From assembly GCF_000336775.1 (NCBI RefSeq), contig NZ_AOLJ01000015.1:124001-188000 (forward strand): a stretch of 64,000 bases of DNA. Direction: 5' to 3'. The stretch comes from Haloferax gibbonsii ATCC 33959 (lineage in GTDB: Archaea; Halobacteriota; Halobacteria; Halobacteriales; Haloferacaceae). The position numbers and the translations under genes were made by a program. Shown here in pieces: positions 23,876-33,826 of the stretch. Every line of letters begins with the position of its first letter. Position 1 is the stretch's first letter. The notes under the pieces were generated by a model that saw only the letters and a program-made list of their open reading frames with translations, had not been told where the DNA came from and searched no databases.

Positions 23876-26008
23876 TTACACCAGTGCGAAGGCGACGAGC
23901 GCCAGCGCGGACAGTCCGAGGGCGTACTTCAGCCCGCTGAGGGCGCTGTTGTCTGCCAGTTTTCCGGCGAGGAGTCCGCTTCCGACCGCCTGAATCAGCG
24001 CGGAGTGGAAGAACACCACGTGGAAGTTCGCCAGCGGCACCGACGAGATGCCGATGGGGAGCGACTGTCCGTCCATCGACGCGGACGCCGACGGCCCGGT
24101 CATCTCGGCGAGGGGGCCGAGGTAGCTCGCACCGAGCATCAGGATGACGAACAGGTAGACGAAGTACCCGATGACGACGATGGCGATGTAGGAACCCATC
24201 GCGCGACGGCGGGACTTTTCGAGCTTGTACCGGTTGCGGGTGTCCTCCGCGGCGACGCTGAGGACGCGCGAGAGGTCGCCGCTGGTGCGGCCGCCGCTGG
24301 CGATGAGCCGGATGACCCGCGAGAGCTGCGGGACGTTGAGCCGGCTGGCGAACGCCATGAGCGCCGAGTGGGCGTCGTGGTTCCAGCGGATGTCGTTGCG
24401 GAGCGCGCGGAGTTCGTCCGCGAGCGCGCCGTTCGACCACCGGGAGACGAGCGCGAGCGCCTCGACCAGCGAGATACCCATCTGGTTGGCGCTCGACAGC
24501 AGGTTCAGCGTGTCGGGGAAGCGCCGTTCGAGCGTGCGCTCGCGGCGGGTCCGAAGCTCGTGGAAGACCGTCAGGGGGACCGCGACGATGGCGAACGGGA
24601 GGACGACGAACCAGACCGTCGTGTTGTACGGGTTCGCGAGCATGGCGTCGAGCGTCGGCGTCGCGAGGCCGAGCACGAAGACGCCGACGACCGACAGGAC
24701 CGCGAGGGGCACCGTGACGACCGCCGAGAGGTACGGCTGGCGGCGCATGATGTCGAGCGGGTCGCCGACGAGCGTCCGAAGCTCGTACACCGCGTTTTCC
24801 CGGCGGTAGTCGTCGAGTCGTTCGTCGACGAAGCCGCCGTCGGAGGCGACCTTGCCGCCGCCCCAGCGGGCCTCGCGGGCGCGCTGGACTTCGCGGCGCA
24901 TCGCGCCGAGGAAGTTGGCCACGACCGTCCGAATCTCTTCGAGGACGGTCACGTCGTGTTTCGTCCGGACCGTGTCCTGCGTGTACGGCGAGGAGAGCAC
25001 GTCCACGAGGAGCAGGAACAACGCCATCCCCAGCGGGAAGATGAGGTAGTTCAGGGCGTACAGCTGGACGAGCGTGTCGCCGCCGAGGAAGCTGATGACC
25101 ATCAGGGTGACGATGAGCAGCAGCGGCGCGGCGACGAACGCGGCGACGAACACCTCGGAGAGCATCGACAGCGTCTCGATGAAGTCCTCCTGCTCGTCGC
25201 GGGCCTCTTCGAGGTACGTCGCGGACTCGCGGTCGAGGAAGGCGGTCACATCGCCGCCGGAGTCGAGGACCGAAAGGAGGTCGTCGAGGAACTGCTCGAA
25301 GTTAATCGAGGGCGTCAGGTTCCGGGAGTTGCGGAGCGCCGTGAACAGGTCGTTGCCGAACAGGTCCATGTCGCGGGCGATCATCTCGAACTCGCGGGAC
25401 ACCTCGCCGTAGTCGGGCGCGTCGGCGACGGAGCGGATGACTTCGAGGAAGCTCATCCCGCCGTGGCTGAGCGCGTACATGTAGACGATGGCGTGCGGGA
25501 GCAGGATGTCGATGCTCCGGCCGCGCATCTCGGCGCGGCTCTTGGGGAGGTAGTACCGGGCGTAGTAGGTCCCGGCGGCCGCCAATCCGCCGACGAGGCC
25601 GACGAGGGCCGCGCCGAGGATGGGCACCTTGTAGGGGAGCAGGGGAACGACGTACTGCGCCGCGATGCCGAAGCTCACGGGGCTCGACGCGTTCGCCAGC
25701 ACGCCCGCGCGGGCGAGGACGAAGGTGAGCGCGAGCCCGACGAGCGAGCCGAACACCGCGGTGACGAACGCCAGTTTGAGCGACTGCGTGAGGTACAGGT
25801 CGTAGGTCGTACCCACGCGGGTCTGGTTCAGCCAGCGCTGGAGGTCGCGGTGGCCCGCCGGGTTACGCTTGAAGTACGTGCGGACGTACCCGTAGCGCTG
25901 GCGGAGCCGCTTGACCTCCTCGGGCGACTCGTCGAAGTGTTCGCGCGGGAAGTACTGCTCGACCTCGTAGTCGGGCAGGGGAACCGAGGACGACGAGTCA
26001 GCGGGCAT
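23876..26008 (-). CDS. pilC: Type IV pilus assembly membrane protein (PilC/TadC family)
   Basis: A 710-residue platform protein with two T2SSF-type domains: one around residues 190-330 (YALSHGGMSFLEVIRSVADAPDYG, ending in hydrophobic AAFVAAPLLLIVTLMVIS) and one around 500-640 (LLSSANQMGISLVEALALVSRWSNG, RLIASGGRTSGDLSRVLS). Extra membrane helices lie between and at the C-terminus. It would anchor the PilB ATPase and pull pilin subunits out of the membrane. Its start overlaps the pilB stop by 11 nt. Haloferax-type genomes carry several pilB-pilC pairs, so the symbol denotes the family, not a specific paralogue. Confidence 0.87.
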   Translation of the reverse strand: MPADSSSSVPLPDYEVEQYFPREHFDESPEEVKRLRQRYGYVRTYFKRNPAGHRDLQRWLNQTRVGTTYDLYLTQSLKLAFVTAVFGSLVGLALTFVLARAGVLANASSPVSFGIAAQYVVPLLPYKVPILGAALVGLVGGLAAAGTYYARYYLPKSRAEMRGRSIDILLPHAIVYMYALSHGGMSFLEVIRSVADAPDYGEVSREFEMIARDMDLFGNDLFTALRNSRNLTPSINFEQFLDDLLSVLDSGGDVTAFLDRESATYLEEARDEQEDFIETLSMLSEVFVAAFVAAPLLLIVTLMVISFLGGDTLVQLYALNYLIFPLGMALFLLLVDVLSSPYTQDTVRTKHDVTVLEEIRTVVANFLGAMRREVQRAREARWGGGKVASDGGFVDERLDDYRRENAVYELRTLVGDPLDIMRRQPYLSAVVTVPLAVLSVVGVFVLGLATPTLDAMLANPYNTTVWFVVLPFAIVAVPLTVFHELRTRRERTLERRFPDTLNLLSSANQMGISLVEALALVSRWSNGALADELRALRNDIRWNHDAHSALMAFASRLNVPQLSRVIRLIASGGRTSGDLSRVLSVAAEDTRNRYKLEKSRRRAMGSYIAIVVIGYFVYLFVILMLGASYLGPLAEMTGPSASASMDGQSLPIGISSVPLANFHVVFFHSALIQAVGSGLLAGKLADNSALSGLKYALGLSALALVAFALV

Positions 26009-28193
26009 CGTCGGCCTCCCGGTCGTCGTCGTCGCTCACGGCTTCGTCCGCGTCCGAGGCGTCATCGGCCGGCGCGGGGCCAGCCTCCGCGATATCGTCG
26101 AACTCGGTGGCGTCGTCGCTGTCGACGACTTCGGAGTCGTCAGCGTCCGAGGCGTCGTCAGCGACGGCATCGGCATCGTCATCGCCGACGACTTCCCAGC
26201 CATCGGCGGCAGCGTCAGCGTCAGCGTCAGCGTCGCCGTCGCCGTCCGCGCCGTCGTCCAACTCGATGTCGAACAGGTCAGCGAGCAGGCGCTCGGTCTC
26301 GGGCGAGACCTCGATTTCGTCGTCGTCGAGGTCGTCCCCCGCGGCGTCGTCCTCGTCACCCTCGTCGACGGAGACCAGCGAGGTCTCGGCGTAGACGTGC
26401 GCGAGGAGGCCTTCGCGGTCGCGCTCGAAGCGGCGAATCATCGCGGAGACCGTCAGGTAGTCGTCGACGCCCGAGGCGGCGATGTACCGGAGCACGTCGG
26501 CGCGAACGTCGAGTTCGTACTGCAGGTCTGCCTTGGTCCAGCCGCGCTCGGCGGCGATTTCGTCGAGGACGACCGAGTCGCCGACGCGCTCGTGGGCGTC
26601 GTTCTCGGGGTTGCGCTTGAACACGTCGCGGAGTTCGACCTCGCCGTCGTCGTCGACGCCGGCGATTTCGGTGACGGCGATGTTCCGGCGGGTCCGGTCG
26701 CCGTCGAGGTGAATCTGCTTTTGCACCGAGATGATGTCGAGGTCCGAGAGCATCTGGGCGGGCACGCCGAGGGGCTCGTTGCGCATGCGGTGGACCACGC
26801 CCTCCGAGGAGTCGGCGTGGAACGTCGTGTACGCGGTGTGGCCCGTGGCGATGGAGTGGAAGAACGTCAGTGCGACGCGTTCTTCCGTGCGAATCTCACC
26901 GACCAGCAGGTACTCGGGGCGCTGTCGGAGCGCGGCCTGCAGGAGCGCGTACATCGACACCTCGCCGCGGCCGTCGGCCGTGAACGTGTCGCGGGTGACG
27001 GACTGAATCCAGTTGTCGTGCGGGAGGGTGATTTCGCGCGTGTCCTCGATGGAGACGACCTTCGCGTGGCCGGGGACGAAGAAGGACACCGCGTTCATCG
27101 AGGTGGTCTTCCCGGAGCCCGTGCCGCCCGCGAAGATGAGCGAGCGGTTGTTCTCGATGGCGAGCCAGAAGTACGCCATCTGCTCGACGCTGAAGGTGTT
27201 CCAGCGCACGAGGTCGACCGGCGACAGCGGCACGTCCGAGAACTTCCGGATGGTGAAGTTCGACCCGCGGGTGGCGACGTCGGAGCCGAGAGTCAACTGG
27301 ACGCGGGAGCCGTCCGGGAGGCTCGCGTCGACGAGCGGGTCGGAGACGGTCACCTGCTTGCCCGCGCGTTGCGCGAGGCGGATGGTGAACGACGAGAGGT
27401 CGCCGTCGTCGAAGACGACGTTCGTCGGCACGTCCCGGTAGACGCTGTGGAAGACGTAGACCGGCACGTCGTCGCCGTCACAGGAGATGTCTTCGATACC
27501 CGGGTCCCGCATCACGGGGTCGATGCGGCCGAAGTGGATGAAGTCGCGGAGCAGGAAGTAAAACAGCTTCCAGAGCGACCCCTCTTCGACCGTCGCCGCG
27601 TGTTCGGTGATTATCTCGCGGGCCTCGTCGTCGAACACGTCCTCGCGGTCGCCGTCGGCGTCGAGGTCGCGGTACAGGAGGCTGTTGCGCAGAATCTTCG
27701 TCAGGTCGTCGCGCACGAAGTCCTCGAAGTCGTCGAGGCGCGGTTCGCTCACGTGGTACCGGTGTTCGCGCTTCTCGTGGTCGTACAGGATGGAGACGAA
27801 CGCGAAGGGCTTGTTCACCCAGTAGTGTTCGACGGCCTCGACGCCCTCGAGGAACGAGAAGTCGAAGAACTGGTCTTCGATGAACGCCTCCGAGGGCGTC
27901 GGCGCGAACGCCGTCTCGTCGTCGATTTCGGCGAAGAACGCCTTCACCTCGCGGAGGACGGCCTCCCGGAGCGTTTCCGGGCGGTCTTCGTCCGCCGCTT
28001 CGTCGTCGGTGGGGTCTTCGACGGGGCCGTATTCGATGCGGTCCGACGCGGGGACCGGTAGTTCACTCGCGCGGGCGGCCATCGCCTCCGGACCGGTCGT
28101 GGGGACCAGTTCGGCGGTGCCGGCACCGTCTGCTCGGAACGATTCTTCGCCATCGAGGCGGTCAGTCTGGGAGTTCTTGTCAGGAGACGCCAT
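25998..28193 (-). CDS. pilB: Type IV pilus assembly ATPase (PilB/TadA-VirB11 family)
   Basis: A 731-residue secretion ATPase. Walker A is GGTGSGKT (356-363), the Asp box is SIEDTREI (about 381), Walker B YLLVGEIR (428-435) and the His box GHTAYTTFHAD (451-461). The N-terminal 90 residues are acidic and probably disordered, and the C-terminal 110 or so are an Asp/Ala/Glu-rich low-complexity tail. It powers assembly of the pilin-like proteins encoded downstream, on the cytoplasmic face. First gene of the operon; upstream DNA carries only a weak TATA candidate (CATACTTAC on the minus strand, 28225-28233). No prepilin peptidase is in the window. Confidence 0.9.
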   Translation of the reverse strand: MASPDKNSQTDRLDGEESFRADGAGTAELVPTTGPEAMAARASELPVPASDRIEYGPVEDPTDDEAADEDRPETLREAVLREVKAFFAEIDDETAFAPTPSEAFIEDQFFDFSFLEGVEAVEHYWVNKPFAFVSILYDHEKREHRYHVSEPRLDDFEDFVRDDLTKILRNSLLYRDLDADGDREDVFDDEAREIITEHAATVEEGSLWKLFYFLLRDFIHFGRIDPVMRDPGIEDISCDGDDVPVYVFHSVYRDVPTNVVFDDGDLSSFTIRLAQRAGKQVTVSDPLVDASLPDGSRVQLTLGSDVATRGSNFTIRKFSDVPLSPVDLVRWNTFSVEQMAYFWLAIENNRSLIFAGGTGSGKTTSMNAVSFFVPGHAKVVSIEDTREITLPHDNWIQSVTRDTFTADGRGEVSMYALLQAALRQRPEYLLVGEIRTEERVALTFFHSIATGHTAYTTFHADSSEGVVHRMRNEPLGVPAQMLSDLDIISVQKQIHLDGDRTRRNIAVTEIAGVDDDGEVELRDVFKRNPENDAHERVGDSVVLDEIAAERGWTKADLQYELDVRADVLRYIAASGVDDYLTVSAMIRRFERDREGLLAHVYAETSLVSVDEGDEDDAAGDDLDDDEIEVSPETERLLADLFDIELDDGADGDGDADADADAAADGWEVVGDDDADAVADDASDADDSEVVDSDDATEFDDIAEAGPAPADDASDADEAVSDDDDREADDAR

Positions 28194-28581: not shown

Positions 28582-29724
28582 ATGGATATTGCTGATATCG
28601 CCACTCCTGATTTCATCGAGGTCGACGTTGACGAGCGATTAGGCAAAGTCCGCTCCATCTTCGAGCGGGAAAACCCTAAGGGCATCATCGTCCAGGACGA
28701 CGGCGAGTACGCGGGCGTCATCGGTGAGAAGCAGCTCATCAACTCGCACGTCGAAGACAACACCAAAGCGGCCGCGCTGACGAAGGCCGTCCCCAAGATA
28801 GACCGTCACGAGAACGTGCGCGAGGTCGCGCGCATGCTCGTCGAGGGCAACACGAAGGTCGCGCCGGTCTACGAGGGCGAAAAACAGTACGGCATCATCA
28901 CGCAGGACGCCATCCTCGAGGCCGTCCTCGACAACCTCGACGCGCTGACCGTCGAGCAGATTTACACCGACGACGTGGTCACCATCGGCGAGCGCGACCA
29001 CCTCGGACAGGCCATCAACCGCCTCCGCGAACACGGCGTCTCGCGGCTGCCGGTCGTCGACCGGGACGGCCGCCTCGCGGGCATCCTGACCACGTACGAC
29101 CTCGTCGAGTTCATGGTGCGCGACGAGGGTCGGCAGGGCAAACAGGACCGCCGCGGCGACACCGACCGCATGCTCGACCTCCCGGTCTACGACCTGATGA
29201 GCAGCCCGGCGCGCACGGCGACGCCCGAAGAGAGCGTCCGCGACGCGGTCGCGCGCATGCTGGAACACGACATCGCCGGGCTCGTCGTCACGCCCGCCGA
29301 CGACGACGGCGAGGTCCTCGGTGTGGTGACCAAGACCGACGTGCTCCGCGCGCTCACCTACACCGAAGAAGAGCAGATGGACGTGCAGGTCACGAACATC
29401 GGCCTCCTCGAGACGCTGAGCCGCGCCGACATCAACTCGGCCATCACCGAGGTCGCGGACAAGTACCAGCGGATGAGCGTGCTCCACGCCCACGTCCGCT
29501 TCCACGAGCACAAGGAGAAGCTCCGCGGCACGCCGCTCATCCAGTGCCAGATTCGGCTCCGCACGAGCCACGGCCAACTGGCCGGCAGCGGCGAGGGCTA
29601 CGGCGCGGAACACGCGTTCCACGTCGCGCTCGACAAGCTCGAACGCAACGTGCTCGAAGTCAAGGGCTTCGAGGCCGACGAGCGCTACCGCGGTCAGCTC
29701 CTCCGGAAGCTGAACGAGCTGTAA
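28582..29724 (+). CDS. Four-CBS-domain protein with C-terminal S30AE/HPF-like domain
   Basis: A 380-residue protein. Four CBS motifs are visible at about residues 1-55, 65-120, 125-185 and 200-262 (for example GVSRLPVVDRDGRLAGILTTYDLVEF and IAGLVVTPADDDGEVLGVVTKTDVLRAL). Paired CBS domains bind AMP/ATP-type ligands and report energy state. Residues about 280-365 follow the S30AE (HPF/RaiA/YfiA) pattern: an N-terminal helix (DINSAITEVADKYQRM), then paired strands including QIRLRTSHGQLAGSGEG, then YGAEHAFHVALDKLERNVLE. A role in energy-controlled ribosome hibernation is therefore plausible (inference). A weak purine-rich AAGGATG precedes the ATG. Confidence 0.82.
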   Translation: MDIADIATPDFIEVDVDERLGKVRSIFERENPKGIIVQDDGEYAGVIGEKQLINSHVEDNTKAAALTKAVPKIDRHENVREVARMLVEGNTKVAPVYEGEKQYGIITQDAILEAVLDNLDALTVEQIYTDDVVTIGERDHLGQAINRLREHGVSRLPVVDRDGRLAGILTTYDLVEFMVRDEGRQGKQDRRGDTDRMLDLPVYDLMSSPARTATPEESVRDAVARMLEHDIAGLVVTPADDDGEVLGVVTKTDVLRALTYTEEEQMDVQVTNIGLLETLSRADINSAITEVADKYQRMSVLHAHVRFHEHKEKLRGTPLIQCQIRLRTSHGQLAGSGEGYGAEHAFHVALDKLERNVLEVKGFEADERYRGQLLRKLNEL

Positions 29725-29826: not shown

Positions 29827-30516
29827 CTACACGTCAGTCGCCGAGAGCCCGCGGTCCGTTATCTTGAACGTCGCCGTCTCCCCGGCGGGTTTCGCGCGGT
29901 GCTTTTCGAGCGTCGCCCGGCGGTTGCCGCCGCGGAAGCGGTCGAGGCGGACGACGGTGCCGGTCCAGTGTTCGAGGGTGTGGCCGCCGAGCGCCCGCGT
30001 CCGGTCGGTGTCGGGGTCGGAGTACACCTGATTCGTCAGGACGACCGCGAGGTCGTGTTTGCGCGCGAGCGACAGCAGGTGCGTGACCTGCCGGGCGACC
30101 CGACGGAGCGCCTCGCCGCCGTCGCCCTCGGCGGTCCGTTCGAGCCGGTAGAAGCCGGTCGCGGAGTCGAGGACGATGAGGTCGGCGTTGGGGGCGAACT
30201 CCTCGGCGTCGCGGACGGCCTGTTCCTGGTCCTCGAAGTCGTACGCCTCGCTTATCATCAGCCGCGAGGTCACAGACTCCACGTCCTCGGGGGCGACCGC
30301 CTCCGCGAGCTGTTGGAAACGGTCGACCGACAGTCCCTCGGTGTCGATGTAGACGACGGTGCCGCCCGCCGCGGCGACCCGGACCGCCGCCGAGAGCGCG
30401 ACGTTGGTCTTGCCGGCCGCGGAGGGGCCGTACACCTGCGTGACGGTGCCGCGTTCGAACCCGCCGTCGAGGAGGTCGTCGAGCGCCGTGCACCCGGTGG
30501 AGACTGACTCTGTCAC
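29827..30516 (-). CDS. radB: DNA repair and recombination protein RadB
   Basis: A 229-residue RecA-family ATPase lacking the N-terminal HhH domain of RadA, the normal RadB architecture. Walker A is GPSAAGKT (30-37) and Walker B LIVLDSATG; VVLTNQVYSD and the LGGHTLEHWTGTVVRL loop are RadB/RadA-like. The start is the GTG at 30516, giving MTESVSTGCTALDDLLDGG; the upstream extension is an Arg-rich shadow. RadB is a recombination mediator helping RadA load on ssDNA. It is divergent from an RNase H-fold protein, possibly functionally linked. Confidence 0.92.
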   Translation of the reverse strand: MTESVSTGCTALDDLLDGGFERGTVTQVYGPSAAGKTNVALSAAVRVAAAGGTVVYIDTEGLSVDRFQQLAEAVAPEDVESVTSRLMISEAYDFEDQEQAVRDAEEFAPNADLIVLDSATGFYRLERTAEGDGGEALRRVARQVTHLLSLARKHDLAVVLTNQVYSDPDTDRTRALGGHTLEHWTGTVVRLDRFRGGNRRATLEKHRAKPAGETATFKITDRGLSATDV

Positions 30517-30625
30517 GTCAGGTGGTGGGTGCCACCGGCCGAAAAAGACCCCGGTCGCCCGCCGCGGTACGGGCCGCCGCTTCGGCGCCAGTCCGCGACC
30601 GTCGAGGGCGACCCGCGCACGACGG

Positions 30626-30630
30626 TTTAT
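30626..30630 (+). promoter_or_regulatory. TATA-like box of the RNase H-fold gene
   Basis: TTTAT is centred 28 nt before the GTG at 30656. This fits a leaderless start and supports that start codon. Confidence 0.5.
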
Positions 30631-30655
30631 TCGTCGCCGTCGCCAAGGGAGGGAC

Positions 30656-31402
30656 GTGATAGTCGTCGCCACCGCGGACTTCGACCTCTACCACGAGGCC
30701 GTGTCCGAACTCCGGAGCCGAGGAGTCGCCTTTACCACCGTCGAGCCGGGCGACCCGCTTCCCGAGCGGGCGCGGGTCCTCCTTACCGGCCCGGACGACG
30801 ACCTCGACGGCGTCGATACCGGCGGCGACGTGACCCGCGTGACCGCGACCGGCGACGACGCGCGCCGCGCCGTCGACGAGGCGCTCGCGAGCCTCCGCGG
30901 CGGCGACGGACGGACCGTCGTCGGGGTGGACCCCGGAACCAGACCCGGCGTCGCCGTCCTCTCGGGCGAGACGGTCGTCGCCGCGTTCCACGTCCCGCTT
31001 TCGGACGCCGTCGAGGTCATCCGCCGCGAGACCGAGGACGCGGTCGACCCCGTGGTCCGCATCGGCGACGGCGCGCGCCTGCAGGGCGCGAAGCTCATCA
31101 ACGACCTCGACGACGTCGCGGTCGAACTCGTCGACGAGACCGGAACGACGCCGTACCTCGGGACCGGCGCGCGCGGCATGGGCGACGTGCTCGCCGCGGT
31201 GAACATCGCCCGCCGGGACGGCGAGCGCATCGAATCCCGCGAGATAGAACCGACCGAGGGCGAACTCACGCGCATCAAGGCGCGCTCGCGCGAGGCGTCC
31301 GAGGACAACCGCACCATCGACGACGCGCTCGCGCGCCGCGTCGCCGGCGGGGAACTGAGCATCGACGAAGCGCTGGACGAACACCGCTCGCGCGAGGAGT
31401 GA
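30656..31402 (+). CDS. RNase H-fold (RuvC-like) protein of unknown function
   Basis: A 248-residue protein starting at GTG. Residues 1-80 form a small domain of their own. From residue 87 the sequence TVVGVDPGTRPGVAVLSGETVVAAF is the first-strand signature of RuvC/YqgF-type RNase H folds, with Asp92 as first acidic residue. Further acidic candidates are Asp138 (VVRIGDGA), Glu157/Asp160/Glu161 (ELVDE) and Asp177 (GMGDVLAAVNIA). A basic helix (LTRIKARSREASEDNRTIDDALARR) ends the protein. It could be a structure-specific nuclease, and its divergent position next to radB fits DNA repair. Neither activity nor role is proven by sequence. Confidence 0.7.
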   Translation: MIVVATADFDLYHEAVSELRSRGVAFTTVEPGDPLPERARVLLTGPDDDLDGVDTGGDVTRVTATGDDARRAVDEALASLRGGDGRTVVGVDPGTRPGVAVLSGETVVAAFHVPLSDAVEVIRRETEDAVDPVVRIGDGARLQGAKLINDLDDVAVELVDETGTTPYLGTGARGMGDVLAAVNIARRDGERIESREIEPTEGELTRIKARSREASEDNRTIDDALARRVAGGELSIDEALDEHRSREE

Positions 31403-32189: not shown

Positions 32190-33680
32190 TTATTCGCCGT
32201 CGTTAGACGCCACCGCGTCCACGGCGCAGCGCATGACCTCGCGGACGGGAAGTCCCGTCTCGGTCGCCACGGCGAGCGCGTCGTCGTACTCTGCGCTTCG
32301 GTCGTAGACGACGCCGTCGGCGTCGCTTCCGACCTTGACGCTCACCTCGTACTCGTCGCCGTCGACAGCGAGCGTCGCCGTCTCGAACTCGCGGCGGGCG
32401 GTCCAGCGGTGCCCCGCCCCGTGTTCGCGGATTCCGAGCGTGCCGGTCTCGACCGCGAGGCGATAGGCGACGCGCTCGGCGTCCTCGGGCTTGACGACGA
32501 CCTTGACGAGGTGGCCGGGGCGGGACTTCTTCATCGTCGTCGGAATGATGGTCACGTCGCGCGCGCCGGCGTCCTTCAGGGTCTCCTGTAGCCCGCCGAG
32601 GACTTCGGGCGTCGCGTCGTCGAGGTTCGTCTCGAGGACGGAAATCTCGTCGCGGACGAGCCGGGAGCCGCCGTCGCCGACGACCGCGCGGAGGACGTTC
32701 GGCCGGTCCGGGAAGTCCCAGCCGCCGGCCCCGTAGCCGGACGACTCGACCGACATCGACGGGAGCGTCTCGACGCCCTCGGCGAGGTGCGCGAGGATGG
32801 CCGCGCCCGTGGGGGTGAGCAGTTCGGCCTCGACGGGGCCGCCGCGGACCGACCAGTCGGCCGCCGCGGTGATGTTGAGCACGGCGGGCGCGGGGACCGG
32901 GTAGGACCCGTGGCTCATCTCGGCCTCGCCGCCGCCGACGGCGACCGGGCCGGTGACGACGCGGTCGACGCCGAGGTCGTCGAGGAGGAGACAGACCCCG
33001 ACCACGTCGGCGATGGCGTCGTCCGCGCCGACCTCGTGGAAGTGGGTCTCGTCGAGGTCCGTGCCGTGGACCTCGGCTTCTGCCTCGCCGAGCACGCGGA
33101 AGATGGCCGTCGCGTCCTCGACCACGCCCGCCGGGAGGCCCATCGACTCGACGAGTTCGACGACCTCGGGGTAGGTCCGGTGCGGGCCGTGACCTTCGGC
33201 GTGGGTGTGGCCGTCGTGAGAGTGCGAGTGACCGTGGTCGTGCGAATGCTCGTGGTCGTCGTGGGAGTGCGAGTGACCGTGGTCGTGCGAGTGCTCGTGG
33301 CCGTCGTCGTGGTGGTGAGTGTGCTCCTCGTCGTGAGCGTGGTCGTGGTGGCGGTACTGATGTTGGTGGCTGTGCTCGTCTTCGCCGTCGCCGTCGGCGT
33401 CGTTGTCGGAGTCGCCCCCGTCGTCGCCGTCGGCGCGCAGGCGTCGGTGGTCGTCGCCGTGGCCCTCGCCGCGGGGGTCGCCGCCGTCGGTCTCCGCGAG
33501 GAGCACGTCCACCTTGGTCGCGAGGATGCCGTTTTTGTCGACCTCGTGGACGCGGTAGGTCACGTCGAGGGCGTCTTCGACGGGCGAGAGGACGGACGGG
33601 TCGGCACCGGCGGCGACGAGCGCGCCGAGGAGCATGTCGCCGCTGGCACCCATCCGGCCGTCGAACGCGAGGAGTCGCAT
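32190..33680 (-). CDS. larC: LarC: nickel insertion protein for the NPN cofactor, with His-rich insert
   Basis: A 496-residue protein; start at [16 protein letters not shown] (33680). LarC is the CTP-dependent cyclometallase that inserts Ni into the pyridinium dithiocarboxylate nucleotide (NPN) used by lactate racemase. The core motifs [47 protein letters not shown] and [15 protein letters not shown] are present. Residues about 73-167 are an insert with about 30 His and many Asp ([12 protein letters not shown] repeated), encoded by tandemly repeated DNA near 33210-33340, a probable nickel store. A single frame covers both LarC1 and LarC2 parts. LarA, LarB and LarE are not in the window. Confidence 0.88.
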
Positions 33681-33826
33681 GCGTGAACCGTCGTGTTCGA
33701 GAGTAAAAACGCCAGCCATCGACGCGCCGAGGCCTGTCCAGTCGGTAGGGATTAGTAGCCGCCCGCCCTACGGTGTGCTAGGCTGTAACCACGGGAGGAC
33801 GGTGCCTCGGGCCGACCGGGGAAGGA

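Follow-up and report, generated by a model that had tools for sequence, protein, structure and literature searches.

We analyzed a 64,000-nucleotide stretch of Haloferax DNA (hereafter the window), in which a single open reading frame with an ATG start, hibA, encodes a protein with four CBS stretches in its N-terminal ~270 residues (E 4.7e-43 in a Pfam search of the protein) followed by a domain of the S30AE (HPF/RaiA) type (Table 1). The protein has a mass of 42,504 Da and a pI of 4.93, and its charges are unevenly distributed, with a strongly acidic CBS part (31 K+R vs 55 D+E) and a C-terminal domain of zero net charge (16 K+R vs 16 D+E). To judge from composition, a neutral domain beside an acidic one may suit RNA contact within an acidic proteome, which is a weak hint at such a role. 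Confidence in the full-length model is middling (pLDDT 79, pTM 0.58), so the arrangement of the domains relative to each other is unsure, and its pLDDT falls below 50 at residues 186-189 within the loop between CBS3 and CBS4.

Table 1. Features of the hibA locus; coordinates refer to the window.
Feature	Position	Strand	Basis and remarks
hibA (HibA1 type), CBS-S30AE protein, likely HVO_2384 ortholog	28582..29724	+	380 aa; domains, homology, mass/pI
CBS1, residues ~1-55, degenerate nucleotide motif	28582..28746	+	Pfam; approximate limits from model secondary structure; motif counts
CBS2, residues ~62-118, degenerate nucleotide motif	28765..28935	+	Pfam, model secondary structure, motif counts; approximate limits
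CBS3, residues ~122-179, motif G167-x-x-T170-x-x-D173	28945..29118	+	Best Pfam stretch 124-179; motif counts
CBS3-CBS4 loop, residues 180-199, candidate counterpart of the P. abyssi PTC loop (190-207)	29119..29178	+	Low-confidence model stretch; conserved length
CBS4, residues ~200-259, motif G247-x-x-T250-x-x-D253	29179..29358	+	Pfam, model, motif counts
S30AE (HPF/RaiA) domain, residues 265-361, predicted filler of the 30S mRNA/tRNA channel	29374..29664	+	Pfam, profiles, fold
C-terminal helix/tail, residues 362-380, resembling P. abyssi and other non-halophile HibA, unlike HibA2/HibA3	29665..29721	+	
radB-like recombinase, convergent neighbour, no hibernation role claimed	29827..30672	-	Pfam Rad51, E 4e-31

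Several other features surround or overlap the gene. A type IV pilus-like pair of genes for a PilB3-like ATPase and a T2SS-F membrane protein adjoins hibA in divergent orientation (23876-28193, minus strand), and a LarC-like nickel insertion protein with a long histidine/aspartate-rich insert is encoded at 32190-33719 (minus strand). Long antisense open reading frames overlap hibA, which we take as by-products of high G+C content.

The S30AE domain at the C-terminus

Taken as a single sequence, the window protein matches the Pfam S30AE model at residues 284-361 (E 9e-4) with a score of 20.3 bits, which falls just below the curated cut-off of 23.7 bits. The same model is matched at E<=0.01 by 24 of the 28 aligned family members, the window protein included, while the other four show no match. 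A genome-wide Pfam S30AE search of the Haloferax genome itself did not report hibA and returned two weak places elsewhere instead, because the Pfam model is too bacterial for this family. A profile of the C-terminal domain built from 18 sequences matches one of nine bacterial HPF/RaiA proteins over 63 columns with a probability of 82% (E 1e-5). In this alignment, the archaeal domain is longer than bacterial HPF by about six residues, inserted between two strands. For HibA, an archaeal family discussed below, two insertions specific to archaea are reported within the HPF domain (PMC13324472).

Fold searches with the full-length model returned only CBS-domain chains among the matches listed (AMPK gamma, AcuB, CBS-type ribosome factors, and others). 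These searches are blind to the S30AE domain because CBS chains fill the list, and residues 265-380 were therefore modelled separately with AlphaFold before the fold searches were run. Foldseek against the PDB then ranked HPF/RaiA/protein Y/RafH-type chains at positions 1-27 (best E 1e-5), counting among them 5mmj_y, whose title mentions the chloroplast small subunit only, with a double-stranded-RNA-binding domain at rank 28 (E 2e-3). VIA-align superimposed the model on E. coli HPF (6h4n_x) with a Z-score of 12.3 and an rmsd of 2.5 over 94 aligned residues; the first row from outside the family scored 7.5, level with the weakest family rows (7.1-7.8). The HibA chains 9sr9 and 9l96 were absent among the structure-search matches listed, which is no argument against the fold.

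The resemblance of the C-terminal domain to S30AE is thus well beyond chance. The original prediction had read four CBS repeats followed by the S30AE order of elements from the translation, and this is borne out by Pfam, by the profile comparison, and by the fold of the C-terminal domain; the two peptides that it had quoted are present at residues 323-339 and 340-356. From its sequence, the window protein appears as a distant relative of the bacterial HPF/RaiA proteins covered by Pfam S30AE and not as an HPF of the bacterial type.

A chromosomal-type HibA and its putative mode of action

A sequence search against the PDB identified 9l96_a (E 2e-69) and 9sr9_H (E 8e-47, residues 3-377) as the closest solved relatives of the window protein, and entry 9SR9 is listed as P. 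abyssi HibA-ATP (PMC13324472). HibA was published in April 2026 in Nat Commun as a protein that joins a CBS module to an HPF/RaiA domain, with Pab0961 of Pyrococcus abyssi and TK1186 of Thermococcus kodakarensis as examples and with PDB entries 9SR9, 9SRA-9SRF, and 9T7H (PMC13324472). According to this study, cryo-EM finds P. abyssi HibA in three positions on idle 70S ribosomes, and in vitro the protein acts as an inhibitor of translation; T. barophilus cells lacking hibA contain about 60% less 70S in stationary phase and resume growth with a delay (PMC13324472). In October 2025, HVO_2384 of Haloferax volcanii had been described as tandem CBS domains with a ribosome-hibernation-like domain, with a printed mass of 42,521 Da and a pI of 4.87 (PMC12607858). 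Based on mass, pI, domains, and genus, the window gene is likely the ortholog of HVO_2384. Copies of the window protein in other Haloferax genomes are 90-99% identical, with H. prahovense nearest to the window genome in our scan (99%).

Domain content, predicted fold, family relationship, and conserved nucleotide motifs were all computed here, and the window gene is an ordinary, near-universal ortholog of an already published family. By analogy to P. abyssi and T. barophilus, we infer that its product binds ribosomes, inhibits translation, and preserves 70S particles. We therefore read the gene, with a probability of about 0.88, as the chromosomal-type HibA of this Haloferax, which would keep empty 70S ribosomes inactive and protected until regrowth. 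Following the P. abyssi model, the S30AE domain would block the mRNA/tRNA channel of the 30S subunit, the disk of four CBS domains would span to the vacant tRNA sites of the 50S subunit, and the loop of residues 180-199 could reach the peptidyl-transferase centre; an empty 70S ribosome might thereby be held inactive and protected until growth restarts. The accessible parts of the published work on HibA and HVO_2384 describe no hibernation test in any haloarchaeon, and in the literature accessible to us we found no experiment that places a window-type haloarchaeal protein on a ribosome.

The CBS module raises the question of whether ribosome binding follows the energy state of the cell. In the HibA1 alignment (HibA1 being the window type, 59 rows), the G-x-x-T-x-x-D motif is kept in CBS3 and CBS4 alike (G 59/59, T 58/59, and D 59/59 in each) and mostly not kept in CBS1 and CBS2. 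The stretch from D173 to D199, which contains the loop, measures 27-28 residues in these 59 rows and 25-27 in the non-halophile outgroup (10 rows). ATP or AMP has been located at the CBS3/4 interface of P. abyssi HibA, and its CBS module favours AMP (Kd 12 uM) over ADP (65) and ATP (113) (PMC13324472). Conserved motifs and this preference would be expected of an energy-gated hibernation factor in which AMP on the CBS module turns ribosome binding on and ATP turns it off, but the bound states of the P. abyssi protein were largely the same with AMP or ATP, ribosome binding showed no clear response, and the native complexes revealed no nucleotide (PMC13324472). A direct AMP/ATP switch is thus unproven and in our view unlikely, though the HibA authors leave a nucleotide role in engagement or release possible (PMC13324472). 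For the hibernation factor proposed here, we consider that CBS3 and CBS4 probably bind AMP at the putative site, and tuning of availability or partner choice would be likelier than on/off switching.

The original prediction had joined two ideas that fared differently: homology to HibA upholds the fusion of a CBS module to a hibernation domain as the haloarchaeal equivalent of HPF, whereas the direct link from AMP/ATP levels to ribosome inactivation finds no such backing in P. abyssi HibA, which binds AMP with no clear effect on its binding to the ribosome. With HibA and HVO_2384 published, the idea of a haloarchaeal HPF equivalent is itself no longer new (PMC13324472, PMC12607858).

Distribution and the radB neighbourhood

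HibA is nearly universal in haloarchaea, a group thought by the original prediction to have no obvious hibernation factors. Among 146 genomes drawn from the order, 140 have a match at E<=1e-40, as do 121 of the 122 genomes of good quality. The window type (>=59% identity) is present in 134 of the 146, six have only a more distant match (G002, G009, G011, G025, G037, G048), and six have none; within the genus, all 15 genomes carry a window-type protein. Across the phylum, 65 of 120 genomes match at E<=1e-15, a count that includes haloarchaea and CBS-only matches. This near-universality makes the question of hibernation testable in the tractable Haloferax volcanii.

The radB neighbourhood of hibA recurs in several haloarchaeal families. 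In the 68 loci of our genome scan (from Haloferax, Halorubrum, Halobellus, and others), radB was found in 63 and every time on the opposite strand, within 400 nt in 47 and at 478-4036 nt in 16, with distances measured to where the BLAST match ends; it was not found in the other five, at least one of which (L041) has a short flank. Forty hand-picked loci of other families, two of them (L171, L173) not of the window type, have radB in 27 cases, convergent in 25 and within 400 nt in 17, and no radB was found in the ~13-kb stretch around the remaining 13. In H. volcanii, the radB neighbour of HVO_2384 is HVO_2383. A hibA-radB operon was considered and rejected given that the two genes are convergent.

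Beyond the neighbourhood, physical contacts have been printed: Pab0961 interacts with RadB and GINS23, and Hvo_2384 with both RadA and RadB, the latter as a personal communication (PMC3820547). The RadA/RadB interaction points to partners other than the ribosome, and it could be argued that the main role of the protein lies in DNA recombination, as a CBS regulator of RadA/RadB (and of GINS in Thermococcales) that is perhaps moonlighting or sequestered and released to ribosomes under stress. The HibA authors do suggest a sequestering partner (PMC13324472), and convergent radB within 400 nt of 47/68 scan loci and 17/40 hand-picked loci is in line with such a connection. However, the S30AE domain and the relatives solved on ribosomes agree with a role in translation, convergent genes share no operon, radB goes unfound at the 13 hand-picked and five scan loci described above, and the Haloferax interaction is known from a personal communication only (PMC3820547), so we give a primarily recombinational role little credence. 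Still less plausible is a partnership with the Pat2 lysine-acetylation pathway that would tie glycerol metabolism to translation, since HVO_2384 did co-purify with the Pat2 variant Y154A but in the accessible text was reported with this one of four variants only (PMC12607858), and an abundant protein could have been carried over in such a purification. We retain the reading of the window gene as a chromosomal-type HibA, to which the near-universality in haloarchaea and the frequent convergence with radB are new additions.

Plasmid-borne paralogs and comparison with known systems

The Haloferax genome under study encodes a second HibA (HibA2) on contig C3 (4253-5458, minus strand; L002, L187), which has 402 residues and is 39-41% identical to the window protein. 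In a family tree of 94 rows (174 before thinning at 90% identity), whose rows had been labelled by identity beforehand, HibA1 (59 rows) is separated by one branch with support of 96/98 that recurs in 94% of bootstrap trees, and HibA2 (nine rows) sits on another with support of 100/100. Sixteen further haloarchaeal rows are neither; ten of them group in a quick tree with the solved chain 9l96_a at 67-74% identity (one at 63%), and we named these HibA3. The paralogs stand out by their CBS3-CBS4 loop, which is Gly/Ser/Arg-rich and nearly double in length: the D173-D199 stretch spans 45-50 residues in HibA2 (nine rows), 45-52 in HibA3 (10 rows), and 42-45 in the other six. Their tails differ as well, at least in the rows shown, where the tail of HibA1 resembles that of the outgroup and P. 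abyssi while those of HibA2 and HibA3 do not.

HibA2 is patchily distributed and frequently found on plasmids. Seven of the 15 Haloferax genomes carry it (84-100% identical to our own copy), and two of 15 carry a HibA3-like copy at >=70% identity. Forty-two plasmid records match our own HibA2 at E<=1e-40, including 23 at >=80% identity; with the window protein as query, one of 41 reaches >=60% identity (a Natronorubrum megaplasmid) and 40 stay below. In seven genomes present in both searches, HibA2 is closer to our own copy than HibA1 is to its counterpart (HibA2/HibA1 identity in %: G084 86/74, G104 85/74, G005 85/66, G022 83/69, G100 82/67, G109 78/68, G043 73/69), which suggests horizontal spread.

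Some further observations concern the surroundings and variety of these paralogs. Six of the 15 Haloferax genomes (L238-L241, L246, L247) carry a further HibA type beyond those in the tree, with identities of 45-47% to HibA2 and of 49-50% to the HibA3 sequence used as query. On contig C11 of genome G067 (L123/L202), a hibA of the window type and a gene of the HibA3 type stand in tandem on one strand, less than 60 nt apart by match coordinates. Across six annotated plasmid stretches with HibA2 (L207-L212), a magnesium transporter gene lies nearby in three (L207-L209) and a universal stress protein gene in three (L209, L210, L212), and a diadenylate cyclase is encoded in L209 too. In L251, the gene next to HibA3 likewise encodes a universal stress protein.

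The HibA3 protein of L251 equals the only haloarchaeal HibA that we found in the PDB. Chain 9l96_a and this protein of the Haloferax mediterranei plasmid pHME505 (WP_004060604.1; L251, 6001-7221), annotated as a CBS domain-containing protein, show 100% identity over 405 residues, and the chain is 38% identical to the window protein over 386 columns. Eight entries (9L94, 9L95, 9L96, 9L98, 9L9C, 9L9J, 9L9K, 9L9V) share Haloferax-like uL2 and uL4, the latter identical to our own uL4 at 242 of 247 positions, and the HibA paralog is chain a in four of them (9L96, 9L98, 9L9C, 9L9V). Of two 30S proteins tried, our own uS12 found no haloarchaeal chain in the PDB (60 matches at E<=1e-30, all listed) and our own uS7 none among the best 60 of 64 matches. 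We therefore set aside 9L96 as a 70S ribosome and, as uL2 and uL4 were matched while uS7 and uS12 were not, regard a 50S as the better reading. By their protein sequences, we infer that the 9L96 group are 50S particles bearing a plasmid-encoded HibA paralog. The accessible part of the P. abyssi study reports that HibA was not seen on 50S alone (PMC13324472), so a paralog bound to the 50S would differ from P. abyssi. Our literature search, with most subscription journals outside its reach, found no publication on hibernation structures from haloarchaea or on such factors carried by plasmids.

Haloarchaeal hibernation may thus have two tiers, with a near-universal HibA of the chromosomal type and patchy, horizontally spread paralogs of which the plasmid kind would be ribosome-bound and might silence free 50S as well, a proposal on which we would place even odds. 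New here, too, are the divergent paralogs with a longer CBS3-CBS4 loop on many haloarchaeal megaplasmids, which prompt the question why a plasmid would bring its own ribosome-silencing protein. Together with the radB neighbourhood, these paralogs are leads worth following.

Among known systems, Dri (9E6Q/9E7F) and Sri of Methanosarcina acetivorans (9ZNF, 9ZNG, 9ZNI) resemble the HibA family as CBS modules on archaeal ribosomes, as judged by entry titles; our literature search found no publication on Sri proteins. Dri of Pyrobaculum calidifontis is described as two CBS modules in a CM-1 + CM-5 fusion, with no HPF domain mentioned in the accessible text (PMC13324472), while the window protein is one four-CBS module with S30AE and falls outside the Dri definition. 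Bacterial HPF/RaiA/protein Y have the S30AE fold in common with its C-terminal ~100 residues but come without a CBS module. Chain a of 9L96 is of the same family and domain order, yet it belongs to another paralog clade with 45-52 instead of 27-28 residues between D173 and D199 and with another tail. With HVO_2384 (UniProt D4GWN2), the window protein shares domain content and a near-equal mass and pI. Like P. abyssi HibA, it has four CBS domains and S30AE in the same order, a similar length (380 vs 392 aa), and a similar tail; unlike it, the haloarchaeal protein is acidic (pI 4.9) and its loop sequence at residues 180-199 is not shared.
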